This document shows, in pieces, positions 5,815 through 17,209 of a DNA stretch of 17,209 nt. Below the pieces are notes generated by a model. The model was given only the letters and a program-made list of their open reading frames with translations, searched no databases and had not been told where the DNA came from. Position numbers and translations under genes: made by a program. Source of the stretch: Ruminococcaceae bacterium UBA4306 (GTDB lineage Bacteria; Bacillota; Clostridia; Oscillospirales; Acutalibacteraceae); contig DGUQ01000196.1 of NCBI GenBank assembly GCA_002394725.1, forward strand, positions 1 through 17,209, in the 5' to 3' direction. Each line of letters starts with the position of its first letter. Positions within the stretch are counted from its first letter, which is position 1.

Positions 5815-6810
5815 ATGAGTAAAAGTAATTTTGCTATCGAAGCCTCTGAGCCGATAAAGGATTTTTTATATTATCTGCAAACCGTCAAGGGACGTTCACC
5901 GACAACGGTGGATGAATACTTCAATGACCTGAGAACGTTTTTCCGCTTTATCAAAAAGCAAAAGCGGCTTGTCCCCTCGGACACGCCCTTTCAGGATATT
6001 AAGGTGGATGACGTTGATCTGGCGCTGATCTCATCCGTGACGCTGACAGACGGTTATGAATTCATGAACTATCTGCTACGCGTGCGCAAGAATGATAAAG
6101 CGGCTCGGGCTCGCAAGACGACCAGTATCAAATCGTTCTACAGCTATCTGACCAACAAAAAGCATTTGTTACAGGTGGATCCGCTCAAGGATCTGGAGCG
6201 TCCGAACGCGCGCGAGAAGAATCCCCTACCCAAATATCTGACGCTCGAACAAAGCATCGATCTGCTCAATGCCGTTGAGGGCAAGCATAAGGAGCGCGAT
6301 TACTGCATTTTGACCTTCTTTTTGAACTGCGGTATGCGACTGGCGGAGCTGGTATCAATGAATTATACGGACATTCGCTCCGATCATACGGCGCAGATCA
6401 TCGGTAAGGGCAGCAAAAAGCGCATCATCTATCTCAATGACGCCTGCATGGCGGCATACGAAGCCTATATGAAAGTGCGCCCCGTAGACGGTGTACGCGC
6501 CGATGATAAATACGCGCTGTTCCTCTCAGCGCAAAAGCGCCGTATCTCACGTGAAATGGTGCAAAAAATGGTCTACAAATACATCGAGAAGATCGGTCTG
6601 GACTCACAGGGATATTCGGTGCACAAGCTGCGTCATACCGCCGCCACGCTGATGTATCAGCACGGTAACGTCGATATCCGCGTGCTGAAGGATGTACTGG
6701 GTCACGAAAGCCTGAGCACGACCGAGATCTACACGCACCTCGATTCGCGCCAGATCGAAGCCGCCGCGAAGAGCAATCCCCTATCGCGTGTCAAACCGAA
6801 AAGCAATTGA
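5815..6810 (+). CDS. XerC/XerD-like tyrosine recombinase
   Basis: Site-specific recombinase; the family resolves chromosome dimers at dif or moves integrative elements. The N-terminal SAM-like core-binding domain covers about residues 10-125 and the catalytic domain 136-320. All active-site residues are visible: R175 (CGMRLAEL), K198 (GKGSKKR), H270 and R273 (HKLRHTAAT), H297 (LGHESLSTT) and nucleophile Y306 (EIYTH). Length is 331 aa, slightly longer than XerC/D. The start has GAGG with 8-nt spacing. It is a lone gene with its own promoter, a convergent hairpin behind it and a long palindrome in front. No integrase-like neighbours are present, so a housekeeping Xer role is likelier than prophage integration, but no dif site was identified. 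Confidence 0.88.
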   Translation: MSKSNFAIEASEPIKDFLYYLQTVKGRSPTTVDEYFNDLRTFFRFIKKQKRLVPSDTPFQDIKVDDVDLALISSVTLTDGYEFMNYLLRVRKNDKAARARKTTSIKSFYSYLTNKKHLLQVDPLKDLERPNAREKNPLPKYLTLEQSIDLLNAVEGKHKERDYCILTFFLNCGMRLAELVSMNYTDIRSDHTAQIIGKGSKKRIIYLNDACMAAYEAYMKVRPVDGVRADDKYALFLSAQKRRISREMVQKMVYKYIEKIGLDSQGYSVHKLRHTAATLMYQHGNVDIRVLKDVLGHESLSTTEIYTHLDSRQIEAAAKSNPLSRVKPKSN

Positions 6811-6820
6811 TGGAAAAGCT

Positions 6821-6860
6821 CATCCCCTGACAAGGTTCTGACTTGCAGGGGATGTTTGTT
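6821..6860. terminator. bidirectional terminator between recombinase and lipoprotein genes
   Basis: CATCCCCTG (6821-6829) pairs with CAGGGGATG (6846-6854), continued by CAAG/CTTG after a bulged A. TTTGTT follows on the + strand and AGCTTTTCC on the - strand, so it can serve both convergent genes. Confidence 0.75.
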
Positions 6861-6868
6861 ATACTGCT

Positions 6869-7783
6869 TTACCATGCGTACTGAAATAAAGAATCAATGG
6901 TCTCACAGGCGTCAGGATAATCCTCAAAGTATTTTTCGATAGCATCATAGCTATCTTTGCCGATCTCATGCAAAACACATTTGCCGTCGGGCGTACAACC
7001 ATCAGTGACAAAATAGCGATAATCCTTATTCACCCACTCTACTAAATAACAGGTATTACGAATACCATCCTTTGTCAAAACCATATCCTTATCACATTTT
7101 TGGAGTGGGATCACTCTTTTGACATTGACATTATCGACATACCGAGTACCATCGTGCACCTGGATCTCCTCTGTATTATCAGATTTCTTTGCATGCTCTA
7201 TCGAGGCAGTCGACTTATCATCCAATAATACTCTTTTGTAGGAAAAATCCGACGCACGATAATCCATCATTCCACCGGATATATATTGATCGTAGTCCGG
7301 CTGTTCCCAATATTCTAAATAATAATGATCGAGCTTTCCTTGTTCGATACTTTCCTTGATCTCGTCGTATTTATCTTCACGAACATAGAACTTCGTCCGC
7401 CATCCGTAATCAACATCTTGATTCGTCGCGCTATTATAGTATGCTTCAGCAATTTTGCTATCAGAAGCGGTATTGCAGCCTAAAACGACGCCATCTTTAC
7501 TCACTCCCATTAAAGCGCCGTACCACGAGCGTAACAAAATCGGAACATCACTCTCAATAACATGATAAGTAAACGTATCAGCGTCACGATAAAAAATGAA
7601 ACTATAATCTCCTGTATCGAGATACTTGTAAGTGGTGTCACGGAACAGCACTTCTGTTTTATCGCTATCCGTATATATAGCTGTATTCGCCTTTGCTTCA
7701 TCCAGCGCACGACAGGAGCAGAGAGAAACGGATACCATCATGATCGCTAAAACTAACGCAATGAGCTTGAATGATTGTTTCAT
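6869..7783 (-). CDS. putative lipoprotein of the YtrAB-type ABC operon
   Basis: 304-aa protein with an N-terminal signal (KLIALVLAIMMVSVS) and lipobox LCSC, giving lipidated Cys24, so it should be anchored on the outer face of the membrane. The remainder is soluble, rich in Asp, Tyr and Lys, with no family I recognise. ATG at 7783 follows GGGGAG closely; a longer frame to 7930 overlaps the permease gene and lacks a signal at its own N-terminus. It is the fourth and last gene of the operon with the GntR regulator, ATPase and permease, 14 bases after the permease stop, suggesting a role with the transporter as sensor, substrate-binding or immunity lipoprotein. That role is inference only. Confidence 0.8.
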   Translation of the reverse strand: MKQSFKLIALVLAIMMVSVSLCSCRALDEAKANTAIYTDSDKTEVLFRDTTYKYLDTGDYSFIFYRDADTFTYHVIESDVPILLRSWYGALMGVSKDGVVLGCNTASDSKIAEAYYNSATNQDVDYGWRTKFYVREDKYDEIKESIEQGKLDHYYLEYWEQPDYDQYISGGMMDYRASDFSYKRVLLDDKSTASIEHAKKSDNTEEIQVHDGTRYVDNVNVKRVIPLQKCDKDMVLTKDGIRNTCYLVEWVNKDYRYFVTDGCTPDGKCVLHEIGKDSYDAIEKYFEDYPDACETIDSLFQYAW

Positions 7784-7797
7784 CTTCTCCCCTCCCC

Positions 7798-8622
7798 TTA
7801 TGTCAGATTGAGCTTTTTGCTCATGATATGCTTGGTGATCAGGAAATAAATCAGCCCAAACAGAGCGTGATACAGAATCATAATGATAAAGAAGATATGA
7901 ACAAAAAGCTCCGGGTGTTGTCCGATCCATTCACCGAGTCTATCAAATAAATCAAGATTCAACGAAACAAAGATTGCGAAAAAGGTACCGATGATCTGCT
8001 TGACGACATAAATGCCGAAGAATACGCCGAAGGCTAACAGAACCTTTTTGCGATTGACAAGCTGACCGACCGAGATACAGCAATACAGCTTGATGAAAAC
8101 AAAGAACGCGGCAACACATGACAGAATGATGAACTCCAGTACATAAAACACGCCGTTCGCGCCGAATCTCACGAAGAATTTCCCTGCCAAATAGAAGAAC
8201 GCCTTGAACACCTCGATGTTCACATCCCCTATCGTAATGACCATAAAGGACAGGAAGATTGCCAACAAGCTGCCTAAACAGAAGATGAACGACGTCAGCA
8301 GCTTCGCGATAATATGCTGCGTCGGGGTGACAGGAAGCGTATGATTCAGATAGCCCTCATTCGTATACATCCCCTGATAAAATCGCACGATACCGATGAT
8401 GACGGTCATCACAATACAGACGACGATCGAGATGATGTACAGCACCAAAGACGAGATAAAGAAGCCGTTATATACGGTAGAAGCACCGCCGACCGAATCA
8501 AGAGGCGGCTCAAAGAATTGGATAATACGGTTGATCAGCGCAAAGCCGAGTATGATCAGCTGTACGGGAAACAATAATCTGAAATACGACCGAAAGTCAT
8601 ATTTGATCAGCTTACTTACCAT
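7798..8622 (-). CDS. ABC transporter permease (ABC-2-like membrane subunit)
   Basis: 274-aa integral membrane protein with about six hydrophobic segments (near residues 15-32, 50-78, 105-130, 150-180, 190-220 and 240-265). The N-terminus VSKLIKYDFRSYFRLLFPVQ and the loop EGYLNHTLPVTPTQHIIAKL are typical of membrane subunits that pair with YtrB/CcmA-like ATPases in Clostridia. GGGAGGTG lies just upstream of the ATG. The start overlaps the ATPase gene by 7 bases, implying coupled translation and a fixed subunit ratio. Substrate unknown; homologous operons often answer cell-wall antibiotics. Confidence 0.85.
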   Translation of the reverse strand: MVSKLIKYDFRSYFRLLFPVQLIILGFALINRIIQFFEPPLDSVGGASTVYNGFFISSLVLYIISIVVCIVMTVIIGIVRFYQGMYTNEGYLNHTLPVTPTQHIIAKLLTSFIFCLGSLLAIFLSFMVITIGDVNIEVFKAFFYLAGKFFVRFGANGVFYVLEFIILSCVAAFFVFIKLYCCISVGQLVNRKKVLLAFGVFFGIYVVKQIIGTFFAIFVSLNLDLFDRLGEWIGQHPELFVHIFFIIMILYHALFGLIYFLITKHIMSKKLNLT

Positions 8623-11443: not shown

Positions 11444-11842
11444 TCAATGGTTATCGGGATTATCGATGCGGTAAATCTCCTGATTATCGATATCGATATT
11501 CGGGATCATGACGGGCTGGATACCGCAGTTAGCGGTAACGGTGGTGATCAGCGCCTTGGCGTACGGGAACAGCGCCTTGAAGGTCTCGGTATGGATCAGT
11601 TCCTTTTTCTCGCCTTCCTTATACGCGAAAATACCGACGATGATGACATGGATCTTGAACGCTTCGGGATTCTCTTTGTCGTGGACCTCGATGTCAAAGG
11701 TGCCCTTCGCGACATTCTTGTTGTTGGCGTACTGCACCTGATAGGAATACTTGTTGCCCAGAGAGATCTTGGTGCCGTTCTCCAGCGTGTTCGCGAACTC
11801 GATTTTATCTGCTTTGTATGCCTGTAAATTAACTACTGCCAT
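11444..11842 (-). CDS. SecB-like protein-export chaperone
   Basis: 132-aa acidic soluble protein. The last third, with LFPYAKALITTVTANCGIQ and PVMIPNIDI, follows the SecB pattern (LFPYAREx10-12 G-x-PP-x-LxP-x-NF), and the N-terminal half is a run of beta strands as in SecB. SecB is a tetrameric chaperone for unfolded secretory proteins in Proteobacteria; Clostridia carry divergent SecB-like proteins of unknown client range, some as antitoxin chaperones. No toxin gene is next to it here. AAGGAG lies upstream of the ATG and a TTGACT/TATAAT promoter about 70 bases back, so it is probably well expressed and monocistronic. Confidence 0.72.
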   Translation of the reverse strand: MAVVNLQAYKADKIEFANTLENGTKISLGNKYSYQVQYANNKNVAKGTFDIEVHDKENPEAFKIHVIIVGIFAYKEGEKKELIHTETFKALFPYAKALITTVTANCGIQPVMIPNIDIDNQEIYRIDNPDNH

Positions 11843-12442: not shown

Positions 12443-12491
12443 ATAGATATTATTTATCAAATGACACAACATGCTTGAAAGGACCCGAACG

Positions 12492-14240
12492 ATGAAAAAG
12501 CTAATCTGTTTACTCGGTACATTGATTCTATCATGGAACCTATGTACTTTCGGCGTTAACGCGTCAGAGACCGATGTGGTTCCTCTCGGTGTTTGTGCCG
12601 TCGTATCCGATGATGATGGCAGCACCGCGATCGAGGATGCTCAAGCAATAGGAAAGTTGGACTCGTTCCAAAGCTATGAGCTGTATATCGATCGTAAACA
12701 GGTGCTTAGCATTGATCTTCAGAACAGTGAGCTTACCTCGACAGGGGTGTCGATCCAGTCCTTTTATCACGCTGAATTTATGCTGCCGGATACATCGTTG
12801 CAGGTATATCTAACGGGTCTGCGATCGAATAACATTGAAGAGATTCAACAAATGATCATCGACAGCTATATTGCCGACAAATCCTTTGAGCTGCATGATC
12901 TGAGCTTTATCGATACCGAGAAAACGTCTATAGACGACGGCGATGAAAACCTATGCTGGGCAGCCGCGTCATCCAACATCCTGTATTATACCGGATGGGG
13001 CGCTAAAGCAGGATTCTCTGACGAGGACGACATCTTTGATCTGTTTCATTCCTCTTTTTCCGATGGCGGCTCTCACCAAGAAAACGCCATGGCTTGGTTT
13101 TTCAACGGAGCCGCTTTACAGAATAATATATTTACATTCGGCGCCGCCAAAATCAAGAACTACCCCGACTCGGGCGGATATTTCCGTGATTACGCCTATG
13201 ATATGGTCAGCGGATACAAATATGTCCGCGGTACGGGCGATCTGAACTACATGATGGAACAACTCAAGCAGAAATACGGTATCAGCCCGGGCGTCACTTT
13301 GTTAAAAAACGGTTCTGCCGCAGGATCCCACGCGATCACGCTGTGGGGCATGGTGACCGACCTATCGTATCATGCTGATCAGATCGAGCATTATCAAGGC
13401 GTGCTGATCACAGACTCTGATTCACATATGATCAGCAGCTTCGACAGACGCGACGCGGATCGGGTACTCAGCTATTATCCGCTTTATGTCAACAATCAGA
13501 ATCTGCTTTGTTTTGACTATTCTGATGATCTGACAGCATGTATAGATGACTACGAATATCTGATGCCCTACAGCAAAAGCGTTCCGCGAGAAACCGATTT
13601 CACTTCCGGTCGCAATAAAGCACAGTATTCCGATCTGATCGTCAGTGAAGCGTATCTGAACAGCAAGAACACAAATGCGGTCAACACATTATATGAGAGC
13701 GGAAGTGATCTGTATTTCAGCTATGCCGTATCCAGCGCGGCGGATAAAGCATGGCGGTCGAACATCCAAACAAAGCGCAGCATCATCAACAAGAAAGGCG
13801 AAACGATCTACAATGATACCGACAGCATTCCGGTATCATATCTTAACGGCTTGAACTATATACAATCGACCGATCTGCGCACCGCGACGATCAAAGATAT
13901 CCCCTCCGGGGATTATACGCTCACATTCACGGTCAATCCCGATCACAAAACAACAGAGGCGTTCTATTATAACAACACGCGCTCCATCGACTTTCGTGTT
14001 CGTGACAGCTACATCCGCGGCGACTTTGACAACAACGGCATCGTCAACATCAACGACACAACACTGATCCTGCGAAAACTTGCCGGATTCGATACCAATG
14101 AAGATGAAAGGGCTGAAGAACGCTGCAATATTGACGGAGATCATTTTTCGATTAAAGACGCTACACTGATCCAGCGATATCTCAGCAACCTCAAAACAGT
14201 GTATGAAATCGGCAATAAAGCACTGTATCAGGATCCGTAA
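12492..14240 (+). CDS. secreted IdeS/Mac-like cysteine protease with C-terminal dockerin
   Basis: 582-aa exported protein. Signal peptide residues 1-25 (LICLLGTLILSWNLCTFGVNA). The core 145-325 resembles the IdeS/Mac (peptidase C66) papain-like fold: nucleophile C155 in NLCWAAASSNILYY, H280 in SHAITLWGMVTD and acidic D308/D310 in GVLITDSDSH. IdeS from Streptococcus cuts IgG below the hinge; the substrate here is unknown. Residues about 380-503 form a CARDB-like beta domain. Residues 509-568 are a type I dockerin: first loop DFDNNGIVNIND is canonical, second loop NIDGDHFSIKD is one residue short at the usual Gly. A dockerin implies docking to a cohesin scaffold. ATG 12492 follows GAAAGGA with 8-nt spacing; an upstream ATG at 12471 overlaps that site. 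Confidence 0.83.
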   Translation: MKKLICLLGTLILSWNLCTFGVNASETDVVPLGVCAVVSDDDGSTAIEDAQAIGKLDSFQSYELYIDRKQVLSIDLQNSELTSTGVSIQSFYHAEFMLPDTSLQVYLTGLRSNNIEEIQQMIIDSYIADKSFELHDLSFIDTEKTSIDDGDENLCWAAASSNILYYTGWGAKAGFSDEDDIFDLFHSSFSDGGSHQENAMAWFFNGAALQNNIFTFGAAKIKNYPDSGGYFRDYAYDMVSGYKYVRGTGDLNYMMEQLKQKYGISPGVTLLKNGSAAGSHAITLWGMVTDLSYHADQIEHYQGVLITDSDSHMISSFDRRDADRVLSYYPLYVNNQNLLCFDYSDDLTACIDDYEYLMPYSKSVPRETDFTSGRNKAQYSDLIVSEAYLNSKNTNAVNTLYESGSDLYFSYAVSSAADKAWRSNIQTKRSIINKKGETIYNDTDSIPVSYLNGLNYIQSTDLRTATIKDIPSGDYTLTFTVNPDHKTTEAFYYNNTRSIDFRVRDSYIRGDFDNNGIVNINDTTLILRKLAGFDTNEDERAEERCNIDGDHFSIKDATLIQRYLSNLKTVYEIGNKALYQDP

Positions 14241-15098: not shown

Positions 15099-15923
15099 CT
15101 ACAAGGATTTGCTTGAAAACTGCTGAATCGCCCTGTCACGAAAAGCGGTATATTTCTTCTCGGGGATCGGCAGCTCCGTGCCATCCGACAGCGTCAGCTT
15201 GAAACGTCGGATATTTTGAATATAAACAGGATTGACCAGATAGCTCTGATGACATCTGAGGAACAGCTGACCATATCTTTTTTCAAGCGCAGATATACTT
15301 GTCATCACCTCGACCGCTTCTCCATCGACAATATGCAGGATACTGTGTCGACTCTCGTGAGCCGCTTCGATATATACAACGGTATCGGAAAGGAAGAAAT
15401 AATCAGATCGGTCAAGTCCGTGAAAATGGATACGATCGCCGTTTTGTCTGAATGACGGGCTGCTGTAATAGATCTGATGAAAGTTTTTCGGATAGATCGT
15501 ATCCTCCTCATGCATGGTATGGGGGTTGGAGATATGACAGAGCAGGATCCTCGCTATCTTTTCCCTATTCCCCACCTCGTCTGTGACCGTGCGTTCACAC
15601 CATGTCAGGAGCAGACGCTGATACAGGGTGATATCATGATGATCGGGATAGTGCGTAGTGACATGATAACTCAGCATCACATCGCAGAACGAAGGGTGAG
15701 CGCTTGTGTGCATGACCTCGATGTTTCCCACGGAAAAGGACAAAGAGTGCTCCTCCGCATTCCATACCTCGATCATCTTCTCCCTGCCATGCAGAAATTG
15801 TCCCTCTGCAGGTCCGTACCATAAGGCGTCGTCATCCATCGCGCCTAAGAACGGCATATAATCGTTATCATAGTATTTCATGATCAGTTCTGCCGAGAGA
15901 TCGGCGATCTGCTGTTGGTTCAT
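15099..15923 (-). CDS. LytTR-family transcription regulator with N-terminal SnoaL/NTF2-like domain
   Basis: 274 aa in two domains. Residues 1-135 look like a SnoaL/NTF2 ligand-pocket fold (LIMKYYDNDYMPFLGAMDDDALWYGPAEG, GREKMIEVW, YHVTTHY). Residues about 165-270 are a LytTR DNA-binding domain: DTVVYIEAAHESRHSILHI, MTSISALEKRYG, FLRCHQSYLVNPVYI and RFKLTLSDGTELPIPEKKY. There is no phospho-receiver, so it is not a classical response regulator; the SnoaL part may sense a small molecule. ATG follows GGGAG with 7-nt spacing. It is transcribed divergently from the ubiquitin-like gene over a 176-bp spacer that contains 21-bp-spaced direct repeats, making regulation of that gene, and of itself, likely. 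Confidence 0.85.
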   Translation of the reverse strand: MNQQQIADLSAELIMKYYDNDYMPFLGAMDDDALWYGPAEGQFLHGREKMIEVWNAEEHSLSFSVGNIEVMHTSAHPSFCDVMLSYHVTTHYPDHHDITLYQRLLLTWCERTVTDEVGNREKIARILLCHISNPHTMHEEDTIYPKNFHQIYYSSPSFRQNGDRIHFHGLDRSDYFFLSDTVVYIEAAHESRHSILHIVDGEAVEVMTSISALEKRYGQLFLRCHQSYLVNPVYIQNIRRFKLTLSDGTELPIPEKKYTAFRDRAIQQFSSKSL

Positions 15924-15952
15924 CTTCTTGCTCCCGATTTGTTATTGCTGTC

Positions 15953-15981
15953 ATTATATCAAAAAAGCTATAGCAGGGCAA
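15953..15981 (-). promoter_or_regulatory. promoter of the SnoaL-LytTR gene
   Basis: On the - strand TTGCCC (15976-15981), 17-bp spacer, TATAAT (15953-15958) with extended TGA. About 30 bases before the start codon. Confidence 0.68.
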
Positions 15982-16021
15982 GTGTTTTTCGTGAAAATAC
16001 AAGTCATTTTCGGAAAAGTAT
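15981..16021. promoter_or_regulatory. pair of 21-bp-spaced direct repeats, likely LytTR sites
   Basis: 15981-16000 and 16002-16021 agree at 14 of 20 positions with pattern AGTnnTTTTCGnnAAAnTA. Each also contains a small palindrome (TTTTC-GT-GAAAA at 15986-15997, TTTTC-G-GAAAA at 16007-16017). Start-to-start distance is 21 bp, two helical turns, and the proximal copy abuts the -35 of the ubiquitin-like gene. LytTR regulators typically bind two direct repeats 21-22 bp apart. Confidence 0.6.
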
Positions 16022-16050
16022 TGACGTTAGGAATAGTGATATAGTACAAT
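16021..16050 (+). promoter_or_regulatory. promoter of the ubiquitin-like gene
   Basis: TTGACG (16021-16026), 18-bp spacer, TACAAT (16045-16050). Expected start near 16057 gives a leader of about 43 bases. The slightly long spacer and adjacent repeats suit an activator-dependent promoter. Confidence 0.68.
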
Positions 16051-16099
16051 GAAATCGTAATAAAAATACCTACCTGATAGATCGCAAGGAGGATTGAAC

Positions 16100-17209
16100 A
16101 TGAAGAAGATCACCAAGAGAGTATTTGCTGTGCTTCTTTCCGTATGCGTGCTGTTCGGCGCTCTTTCTGTGAGCGCGACTGCGGCAAATGTTACGCTTGC
16201 TCCGACAGGGATGCAGATATTTGTCCGCACCCTGACCGGAAAGACAGTCACGCTTGAGGTCGATTCCAGTGATACGATCGAGAATATCAAGCAGAAAATT
16301 CAGGAAAAAGAAGGGATCGCACCCGATCAGCAGAGGCTTATCTTTGCCGGTAAGCAGCTCGAGGACGGAAGAACGCTCGCTGACTATAATATCCAGAAGG
16401 AATCTACCCTGCATCTTGTACTGCGCATCAGAGGCGAATACTGTCTTTGGCTCGGTGATACACAGATCACCCAAGATAATTGCGAAGACATTCCCTCGGT
16501 AACCGACGGTAAGGCAAGCTTTGATCCCGAAACCTGTGTCCTGACTCTCGACAATGTTAAGCGGATCAGAGGCGAGTATCAGGATGCTATCCTCTATTCA
16601 GAATTGGATTATCTTACGATCAAATTCACCGGGGAGAATCATTTAAACTACTATAACTATCAGGACGGTCCCGTTTCCTTTGATACGGACTACACGCGCG
16701 ACTTAGGTATCTATGCCAAGGGCGCTCTTTGTTTTGACGGCAGCGGCAGTCTGTCGCTCGAAGGCTTTGAGCAATCGATCCACGCGGACGCAATGGCTGT
16801 GACCGTTGAAAACGGCGCGCTGAATATCGAAATGAATTGGCGTCATTTTGACTTGGTCGATTATGAAGAGACAATCAACTGCGGCGCGATGACGGTCAAC
16901 GGCGGCAACTTGACGATCAAAGGATACTATACGGCAAACGGCAATCATTTTGAACATGGCAGCGGTGAGGTAGGTTCGGACAACTCCTATTATGCCGACG
17001 GTATTTCCTGCGACAGCTTTCTGATGACCGGCGGTATGATGACTGTGGAAAACTATCAGCGGGGAATCGTCGCCGACGCTATCTCTGTCACCGGCGGCAA
17101 AATCACACTCAGCAACGGTAAAGGCACAGGCTTGTACGCTATAGGGGATGAGGGCGTCAGTATCAGCGGAACTAATACATCGGTTGATGTAACAACCGGC
17201 GGCAACATC
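16100..17209 (+). CDS. secreted ubiquitin-domain protein with beta-helix-like C-terminal region, 3'-truncated by window edge
   Basis: Open for 370 codons to the last base with no stop. AAGGAGG precedes ATG 16100 by 7 nt. Residues 1-29 are a signal peptide ([22 protein letters not shown]), then a short linker. Residues 38-113 are ubiquitin, beginning [12 protein letters not shown] and including [19 protein letters not shown] and [17 protein letters not shown]. By my alignment 65 of 76 residues equal human ubiquitin; changes are K6R, I13V, E18D, P19S, V26I, A28Q, D32E, P37A, S57A, L73I and G76E. L8, I44, V70, K48 and K63 are kept. The final Gly is Glu and the chain runs on, so conjugation or DUB release is unlikely. 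Residues 114-370 ([39 protein letters not shown]) look like a repetitive beta-helix or carbohydrate-binding-like domain. Codon use resembles its neighbours. Confidence 0.92.

Follow-up and report, generated by a model that had tools for sequence, protein, structure and literature searches.

A near-eukaryotic ubiquitin as the N-terminal head of a predicted exported, very probably dockerin-bearing protein in a Ruminococcaceae bacterium

The window (the whole stretch of 17,209 nucleotides analyzed here, from Ruminococcaceae bacterium UBA4306) ends in a gene whose product carries a near-eukaryotic ubiquitin between a predicted signal peptide and a long C-terminal body, which very probably closes with a dockerin. 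We consider it very likely that this ubiquitin is displayed on the cell surface and kept by selection. As to its use, mimicry toward eukaryotes is our tentative preference over an antibacterial role or that of a rugged cap. The reading as a whole, in which predicted export, tethering by cohesin, and surface display would present a mimic of eukaryotic ubiquitin, falls slightly short of an even chance.

The frame that starts with the ATG at 16100 remains open to the last base of the window (17209; 370 codons). The first-pass annotation had suggested looking for a stop beyond this edge, and the contig (C184, 22385 bases) carries one: positions 17210-17370 are all N (161 N), and the frame that is open from 17371 ends outside the window with a TAG at 19072-19074. 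The stop is missing from the window because an assembly gap falls at its edge. The C-terminal end encoded by this 3′ piece is a type I dockerin (46.4 bits, E = 4.4e-12). Both pieces very probably belong to one gene, as judged from relatives that are open throughout; uninterrupted signal peptide-ubiquitin-helix-dockerin frames were found in genomes G011, G068, G119, and G142 (loci L157, L163, L162, and L164, respectively). Downstream of the gene, a tRNA-Gln is followed by frames read as ClpC and PgsA. Among the start signals (Table 1), the AAGGAGG site had been called correctly. The bacterial promoter claimed upstream was recovered as a match to the consensus, but it is weak, since 3 such sites were found against a mean of 1.0 (SD 1.2) in shuffled sequences.

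Table 1. Features of the ubiquitin-headed gene and the region upstream of it in the window
Feature	Position	Strand	Basis or remark
Divergent LytTR-domain gene	15099..15923	-	PF04397, E = 1.5e-14
Sigma-70-like promoter match, TTGACG-18-TACAAT	16021..16050	+	10 of 12 positions
AAGGAGG ribosome-binding site	16086..16092	+	Sequence; 7 bases before ATG
5′ part of the ubiquitin-headed gene	16100..17209	+	Open frame; gap starts at contig base 17210
Signal peptide (predicted; about residues 1-27) with the short linker that leads to ubiquitin Met1	16100..16210	+	By eye
Ubiquitin domain, residues 38-113	16211..16438	+	PF00240; 65 of 76 positions identical to human
All-strand, beta-helix-like region, start	16439..17209	+	AlphaFold model
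Cthe_2159 match (PF14262, carbohydrate-binding), residues 263-341	16886..17122	+	Pfam

Export, as proposed by the first-pass annotation, is likely: the signal peptide was read by eye from N-terminal lysines, a hydrophobic core, and an A-T-A motif, and our home-made rule agrees with this reading. The ubiquitin Met1 sits about 10 residues behind the likely cleavage site. The identity to human ubiquitin given by the first-pass annotation was confirmed, and the domain matches the Pfam ubiquitin profile with 107.3 bits (E = 3.3e-31; cut-off, 25.4). In a search of the whole genome this profile scored 110.9 bits, and none of the 14 control genomes matched it. The best 60 of 430 PDB sequence matches are ubiquitins or ubiquitin-derived by name. 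Furthermore, in an AlphaFold model (mean pLDDT, 80.5; 16 alignment rows), the domain resembles PDB ubiquitins, e.g., 9fn4_B (TM score of 0.95 by target length). With a profile score above the cut-off and a predicted ubiquitin fold, we assign the domain to ubiquitin. It retains Leu8, Ile44, His68, Val70, Lys48, and Lys63.

At position 76 the domain has a Glu and the chain continues, so that the Gly-Gly end is absent. Neither of the two features of a conjugated modifier, a Gly-Gly end and an E2 in the genome, was found: the E2 family PF00179 had no match in the own genome (78.95% complete), and no E1, E2, or deubiquitinase was recognized by eye among the window frames. Across the genus, PF00179 matched 9 of 161 genomes at an E value of 0.001, one of them over the cut-off; three of the nine (G047, G083, and G086, all under the cut-off) carry ubiquitin. 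Since the Gly-Gly end is lacking and a large C-terminal body follows, conjugation is not expected.

The region behind the ubiquitin was modeled with strands only. Of the 25 blocks of ten residues that start at residue 121, 18 had a mean pLDDT of at least 90; for residues 281-290 it was only 45. The PF14262 match within it (31.8 bits, E = 1.1e-7; cut-off, 25.8) covers just profile positions 189-260 of 262. The likeness to Cthe_2159 proteins consists of this match and is partial, and the window protein has extra modules. With ruminococcal cellulosome proteins, it has in common the C-terminal type I dockerin and cohesins in the same genome, but it carries ubiquitin, and no enzyme domain was found in it by Pfam.

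The first-pass annotation was right about the near-eukaryotic type of the ubiquitin, but the gene is no lone curiosity. At an E value of 0.001, the domain gave 41 matches in the genus, spread over 33 of 161 genomes, each of which exceeded the cut-off. It was likewise detected in 20 of 398 genomes of the family draw (19 over the cut-off; 17 of 135 genera), and in 7 of 391 genomes of the class draw (5 over the cut-off). The three draws overlap and each counts the own genome; in each, 0 of 14 control genomes matched. Similar genes are also present in records of other phyla, and the distribution is patchy. The 41 genus matches comprise 24 genes with a signal peptide and an N-terminal ubiquitin, the window gene included; 12 matches in 11 long frames with a more divergent ubiquitin, mostly internal among repeats (N-terminal in L182); and 5 cut or weak pieces. 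A dockerin (E value of 0.01 or better) was found in 19 of the 24 genes, with the window gene counted via its 3′ piece, and in 3 of the 11 long frames. The five genes without it are L151, L158, L165 (shortened), L171, and L172.

Searches of the own genome gave 49 matches to dockerin and 4 to cohesin. Cohesin and type I dockerin thus occur in the same genome, the dockerin of the window gene being that of the piece behind the gap. In the control genomes, the cohesin family matched 1 of 14 and the dockerin family 2 of 14. Three of the own cohesin proteins were examined: two start, by eye, with a signal peptide and end in a membrane helix, and the third combines cohesin and dockerin. We conclude that the own genome encodes the cohesins that a surface display would need as receptors; their pairing with the window dockerin is putative. 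Cohesins are not special to ubiquitin carriers, because a match is found in 149 of the 161 genus genomes, including 32 of the 33 carriers. The sole carrier without one, G140, has a ubiquitin gene (L158) that lacks a dockerin. Exported via the Sec pathway, the ubiquitin-headed protein would dock with its dockerin on a membrane-anchored cohesin at the cell surface, and the ubiquitin head would sit outermost on the cell.

Two homologues without ubiquitin were also observed. P0127 has a signal peptide, the helix, and a dockerin, and an LRGE precedes its helix as at the ubiquitin end of the relatives; this is perhaps the remnant of a lost ubiquitin head, or chance. P0121 is 97% identical over 92% of the post-ubiquitin region and starts behind the ubiquitin; either the gene call is truncated or the allele lacks ubiquitin.

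Nine window-type genes, compared in 36 pairs, served to contrast the parts of the protein. The ubiquitin had a mean pN/pS of 0.064/0.396, the helix 0.290/0.502, and the signal-peptide stretch 0.189/0.424. The dN/dS ratio of the ubiquitin was between 0.04 and 0.16 in 34 of the 36 pairs; the remaining two pairs had ratios of 0.00 and 0.28. At the DNA level, the helix was 58-61% identical in 6 of 7 comparisons versus 84-90% for the ubiquitin. At the locus that the window shares with G142 and G068, identity was 87% for LytTR, 98-99% for the signal-peptide stretch (as also in G119), 89% for the ubiquitin, 60% for the helix, 79-83% for the post-helix part, 69-70% for the dockerin, and 88% for ClpC. 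G119 deviates, with a helix that is 90% identical. Moreover, L157 has a helix nearly identical to that of L163 or L164 (pS, 0.05-0.07) and a silently different ubiquitin (pS, 0.23-0.29), which argues for recombination at work. These comparisons describe a head that stays constant while the body is exchanged or evolves fast, with allele exchange by recombination.

Conservation of the domain surface was analyzed in 90 bacterial domains, which were prefiltered at 55 or more of 76 positions identical to human, i.e., for nearness to eukaryotes; after deduplication and exclusions, 27 of the 120 remaining rows are below this value, internal domains among them. In the 90 domains, the core and the Ile44 patch each average 0.92 identity to human, Leu8, Ile44, and Val70 are all retained in 74, and Gly75-Gly76 is retained in 10. 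Variation was lower on the Ile44 face than at other exposed sites, both in the genus (0.076 versus 0.161; one-sided P = 0.04) and in the 90 domains (0.093 versus 0.200; P = 0.08). Since eukaryotic ubiquitin trends alike (P = 0.10), this bias is of little help in telling mimicry from a rugged fold, and Ile44-face constraint would be weak evidence for mimicry.

The head might be valued for its robustness alone: small, very stable, and resistant to proteases, it would aid export or protect the protein from its N-terminal place. The diverse partners behind the ubiquitin, its recurrent N-terminal position, and the equal retention of core and Ile44 patch would be compatible with such a cap. In our judgment, however, the low dN/dS ratios exceed what a bare fold would need, and the same holds for the surface lysines K11, K29, K33, K48, and K63, retained at 0.88-0.98 in the set filtered at 55 of 76. 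We regard the rugged cap as rather unlikely.

Under the mimicry that we tentatively prefer, the displayed, non-conjugated ubiquitin would bind ubiquitin-recognizing proteins of neighboring eukaryotes. That the head stays close to eukaryotic ubiquitin in sequence as the body varies favors a partner that recognizes ubiquitin itself. Neighbors with ubiquitin-recognizing partners are eukaryotes, and rumen protozoa, fungi, or host cells would be the candidates. On the other hand, eukaryotic ubiquitin-binding proteins are mostly intracellular, which counts against mimicry. The position of Met1 in the window protein, about 10 residues past the putative cut, the patchiness of the gene, and the start of P0121 behind the ubiquitin may also count against the reading as a whole.

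The main functional rival is an antibacterial weapon, in which the displayed or shed head would inhibit a target in competing bacteria. No other part of the protein is as constrained as the head, the opposite of the pattern in many toxins; anchoring by dockerin or autotransporter likewise argues against a weapon. The patchy spread of the gene fits this role, and so do four tandem genes in genome G252 of the same family (1.1 Mb; contig C22, locus L200, positions 6497-8003). They encode 103-123 amino acids and share a bacteriocin-type leader ending in double glycine (EELELVIGG), and 3 of the 4 have detected ubiquitin-like domains (28-32 of 76 positions identical to human; ends LRG, LMG, and QMG). 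This looks like leader-peptide export of ubiquitin-like proteins. Furthermore, extracellular ubiquitin and its fragments are described as antimicrobial in PMC10892293.

The closest precedent for such a weapon is BfUbb (gene ubb), the secreted ubiquitin of Bacteroides fragilis (PMC3352274, PMC5705921). According to these two papers, activating and conjugating enzymes are not apparent in the B. fragilis genome and the presence of BfUbb is patchy; the authors of PMC5705921 describe the species as among few bacteria with a eukaryotic-like ubiquitin. In the same text, the BfUbb signal peptide is cut exactly before Met1, the end glycine is absent, and the protein antagonizes B. fragilis strains; Tyr119 of the B. 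fragilis peptidyl-prolyl isomerase is reported to decide sensitivity, as cited in PMC12396204. BfUbb is the one relative of this kind that has been tested, and its action on bacteria (PMC5705921) weakens the case for mimicry. Nevertheless, we hold an antibacterial role for the window protein to be unlikely. The first-pass annotation had called the two proteins comparable. As far as BfUbb is described in these sources, they are alike in the signal peptide before a eukaryotic-type ubiquitin, the lack of a Gly-Gly end, and their patchy presence. However, BfUbb is ubiquitin alone, while the window ubiquitin is not free but the N-terminal head of a long body, fused to the beta-helix and very probably to the dockerin, and its Met1 does not directly follow the likely cut.

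Ubiquitin heads in other records were collected from a scan of named genomes (the best 80 loci of at least 367 confirmed stretches) and from IMG/VR (10 loci, some of which look by eye like eukaryotic viruses and others like bacterial contigs). From these 90 loci, 38 were left out: 13 probably eukaryotic or viral, 13 genus duplicates, 3 duplicates, 1 divergent, and 8 without a complete visible signal peptide. The 52 retained loci gave 53 proteins, to which that of Ruminococcus albus 7 was added. All 54 match ubiquitin (Pfam, E value of 0.001), and the partners include the autotransporter barrel (11 proteins), IPTL-CTERM (5), InlB-like repeats (3), SLH (2), SdrD-B (2), and Por_Secre_tail (2). 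A dockerin is present in at most one of them, as it is missing among the 25 families listed. Many record titles name rumen or gut metagenome-assembled genomes (MAGs), others pond, sea, or culture. Carriers whose records are not labeled as MAGs are R. albus 7, Dyella sp. OK004, Dyella acidiphila, Rhodobacter amnigenus, Conexibacter, Denitrificimonas caeni, and Clostridiales NK3B98. The ubiquitin of Dyella sp. OK004 is free, has a Gly-Gly end, and is identical to human at 75 of 76 positions.

In R. albus 7, a cultured strain, the gene lies on the complete plasmid pRUMAL01 (L149, 7923-8663), is annotated as "ubiquitin family protein," and encodes a signal peptide and a ubiquitin whose Met1 directly follows Ala-x-Ala; it belongs to a series of hypothetical genes, and a dockerin gene is close by. 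Water buffalo rumen yielded a Clostridia MAG with a tandem pair of ubiquitin-headed exported genes (L065, 5342-6480). In L112, L113, and L138, labeled Bifidobacterium breve or Acidimicrobiales, ubiquitin units lie in adjacent frames and are followed by similar partner sequences, e.g., TGVVTYQ; the host labels of these contigs look doubtful.

Among 84 deduplicated signal-peptide proteins with at least 55 of 76 positions identical to human (genus included; 71 by the home-made rule, 13 by eye), 62 have a small-x-Ala cleavage-type motif directly before the ubiquitin Met1. For comparison, 103 of 1966 positions lying 20-44 residues farther upstream in these proteins carry the motif. With a cut at this motif, the mature chain would start like native ubiquitin. 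These sequences raise the possibility, which we hold more loosely than mimicry in the window organism, that many phyla display eukaryotic ubiquitin outside the cell on anchors of their own, as a shared mimicry toward protists and animal hosts. The putative anchors would be dockerin (in ruminococci, the cellulosome), autotransporter, IPTL-CTERM, S-layer, and SdrD-like modules, usually with no Gly-Gly end and with a predicted cut at or near Met1.

The first-pass annotation had taken two residues as a hint at a plant donor. The nearest of 192 different ubiquitin repeats, which form a biased sample because they stem from the best 120 of 7937 matches ranked by repeat number, are those of the metagenome polyubiquitins P0025 and P0120 (68 of 76 positions; S19, E24, Q28, A57). 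Plant-type repeats (S19, D24, A28, A57) reach 66-67 of 76. The lead of P0025 and P0120 amounts to one or two residues, a small margin, and a plant donor is neither supported nor excluded. A tree of 148 rows and 72 columns was too poorly supported (2 of 145 inner branches starred) to give the donor or the number of transfers. A single bacterial clade was neither rejected nor shown (AU test, P = 0.193), and the data establish neither a single transfer nor multiple ones. E32 and I26 occur in 34 and 37 of the 90 bacterial domains, respectively, and both are absent from the 58 eukaryotic-type rows of the tree; among 806 repeats, E32 was found in 3 and I26 in 0. Change after transfer is therefore likely.

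Carriage of the window gene by phage or plasmid was considered and rejected: the ubiquitin domain matched 0 of 50,697 phage records, and positions 15900-17209 of the window had no near DNA match in plasmid records. Two of 72,556 plasmid records matched the domain, that of R. albus 7 and a distant one. The LytTR gene adjoins the ubiquitin gene in seven other genus genomes (L162-L168, 88-90% identical; L168 partial), and ClpC lies downstream of it in three (L157, L163, and L164). The remaining contigs end too early or carry different neighbors at these positions. Further upstream, window positions 12471-14240 encode another protein that is predicted to be exported; its end is weakly dockerin-like, and by eye it has a cysteine-peptidase-like motif; no Pfam family exceeded its cut-off there, and the dockerin-like signals had E values of 0.12 and, for PDB entry 8x39, 0.0041. 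Positions 11444-11842 encode a SecB-like protein (PF02556, E = 2.3e-7) with a 95% identical relative in G142; SecB is unusual in a Gram-positive bacterium.

Grounds for suspecting an assembly chimera or eukaryotic contamination are that the window stops at a gap in an incomplete genome of 207 contigs and that 13 of the 90 named and viral loci look by eye like eukaryotic or viral ubiquitin (polyubiquitin, signal peptide absent), but this explanation is highly improbable, because the LytTR and ClpC neighbors are conserved and a fifth of the genus genomes carry the domain, in addition to the ribosome-binding site and signal peptide of the window gene, the complete R. albus 7 plasmid, and the non-MAG records of Dyella, Rhodobacter, Conexibacter, and Denitrificimonas. 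A chimera, or absence of the gene from independent genomes of the species, had been named in advance as what would speak against the ubiquitin claim; neither was found at the genus level.

Ubiquitin is generally regarded as characteristic of eukaryotic cells. Bacterial ThiS/MoaD and Bub/Bil-type systems share the beta-grasp fold with the window ubiquitin, but the latter is far closer to eukaryotic ubiquitin in sequence and is predicted to be exported, and there is no E2 match in its genome. Among the literature matches listed, titles and abstracts named BfUbb as the only bacterial eukaryotic-type ubiquitin, besides papers on archaeal Urm1, with most subscription papers and bioRxiv outside the scope; likewise, no title or abstract dealt with ubiquitin-dockerin proteins of Ruminococcus. 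BfUbb is a free protein; here ubiquitin forms a modular head, kept over time, on proteins predicted to lie at the bacterial surface, cultured organisms included. This raises the question of what reads ubiquitin outside cells, and the answer would bear on rumen protist grazing, host contact, extracellular ubiquitin, and bacterial competition.
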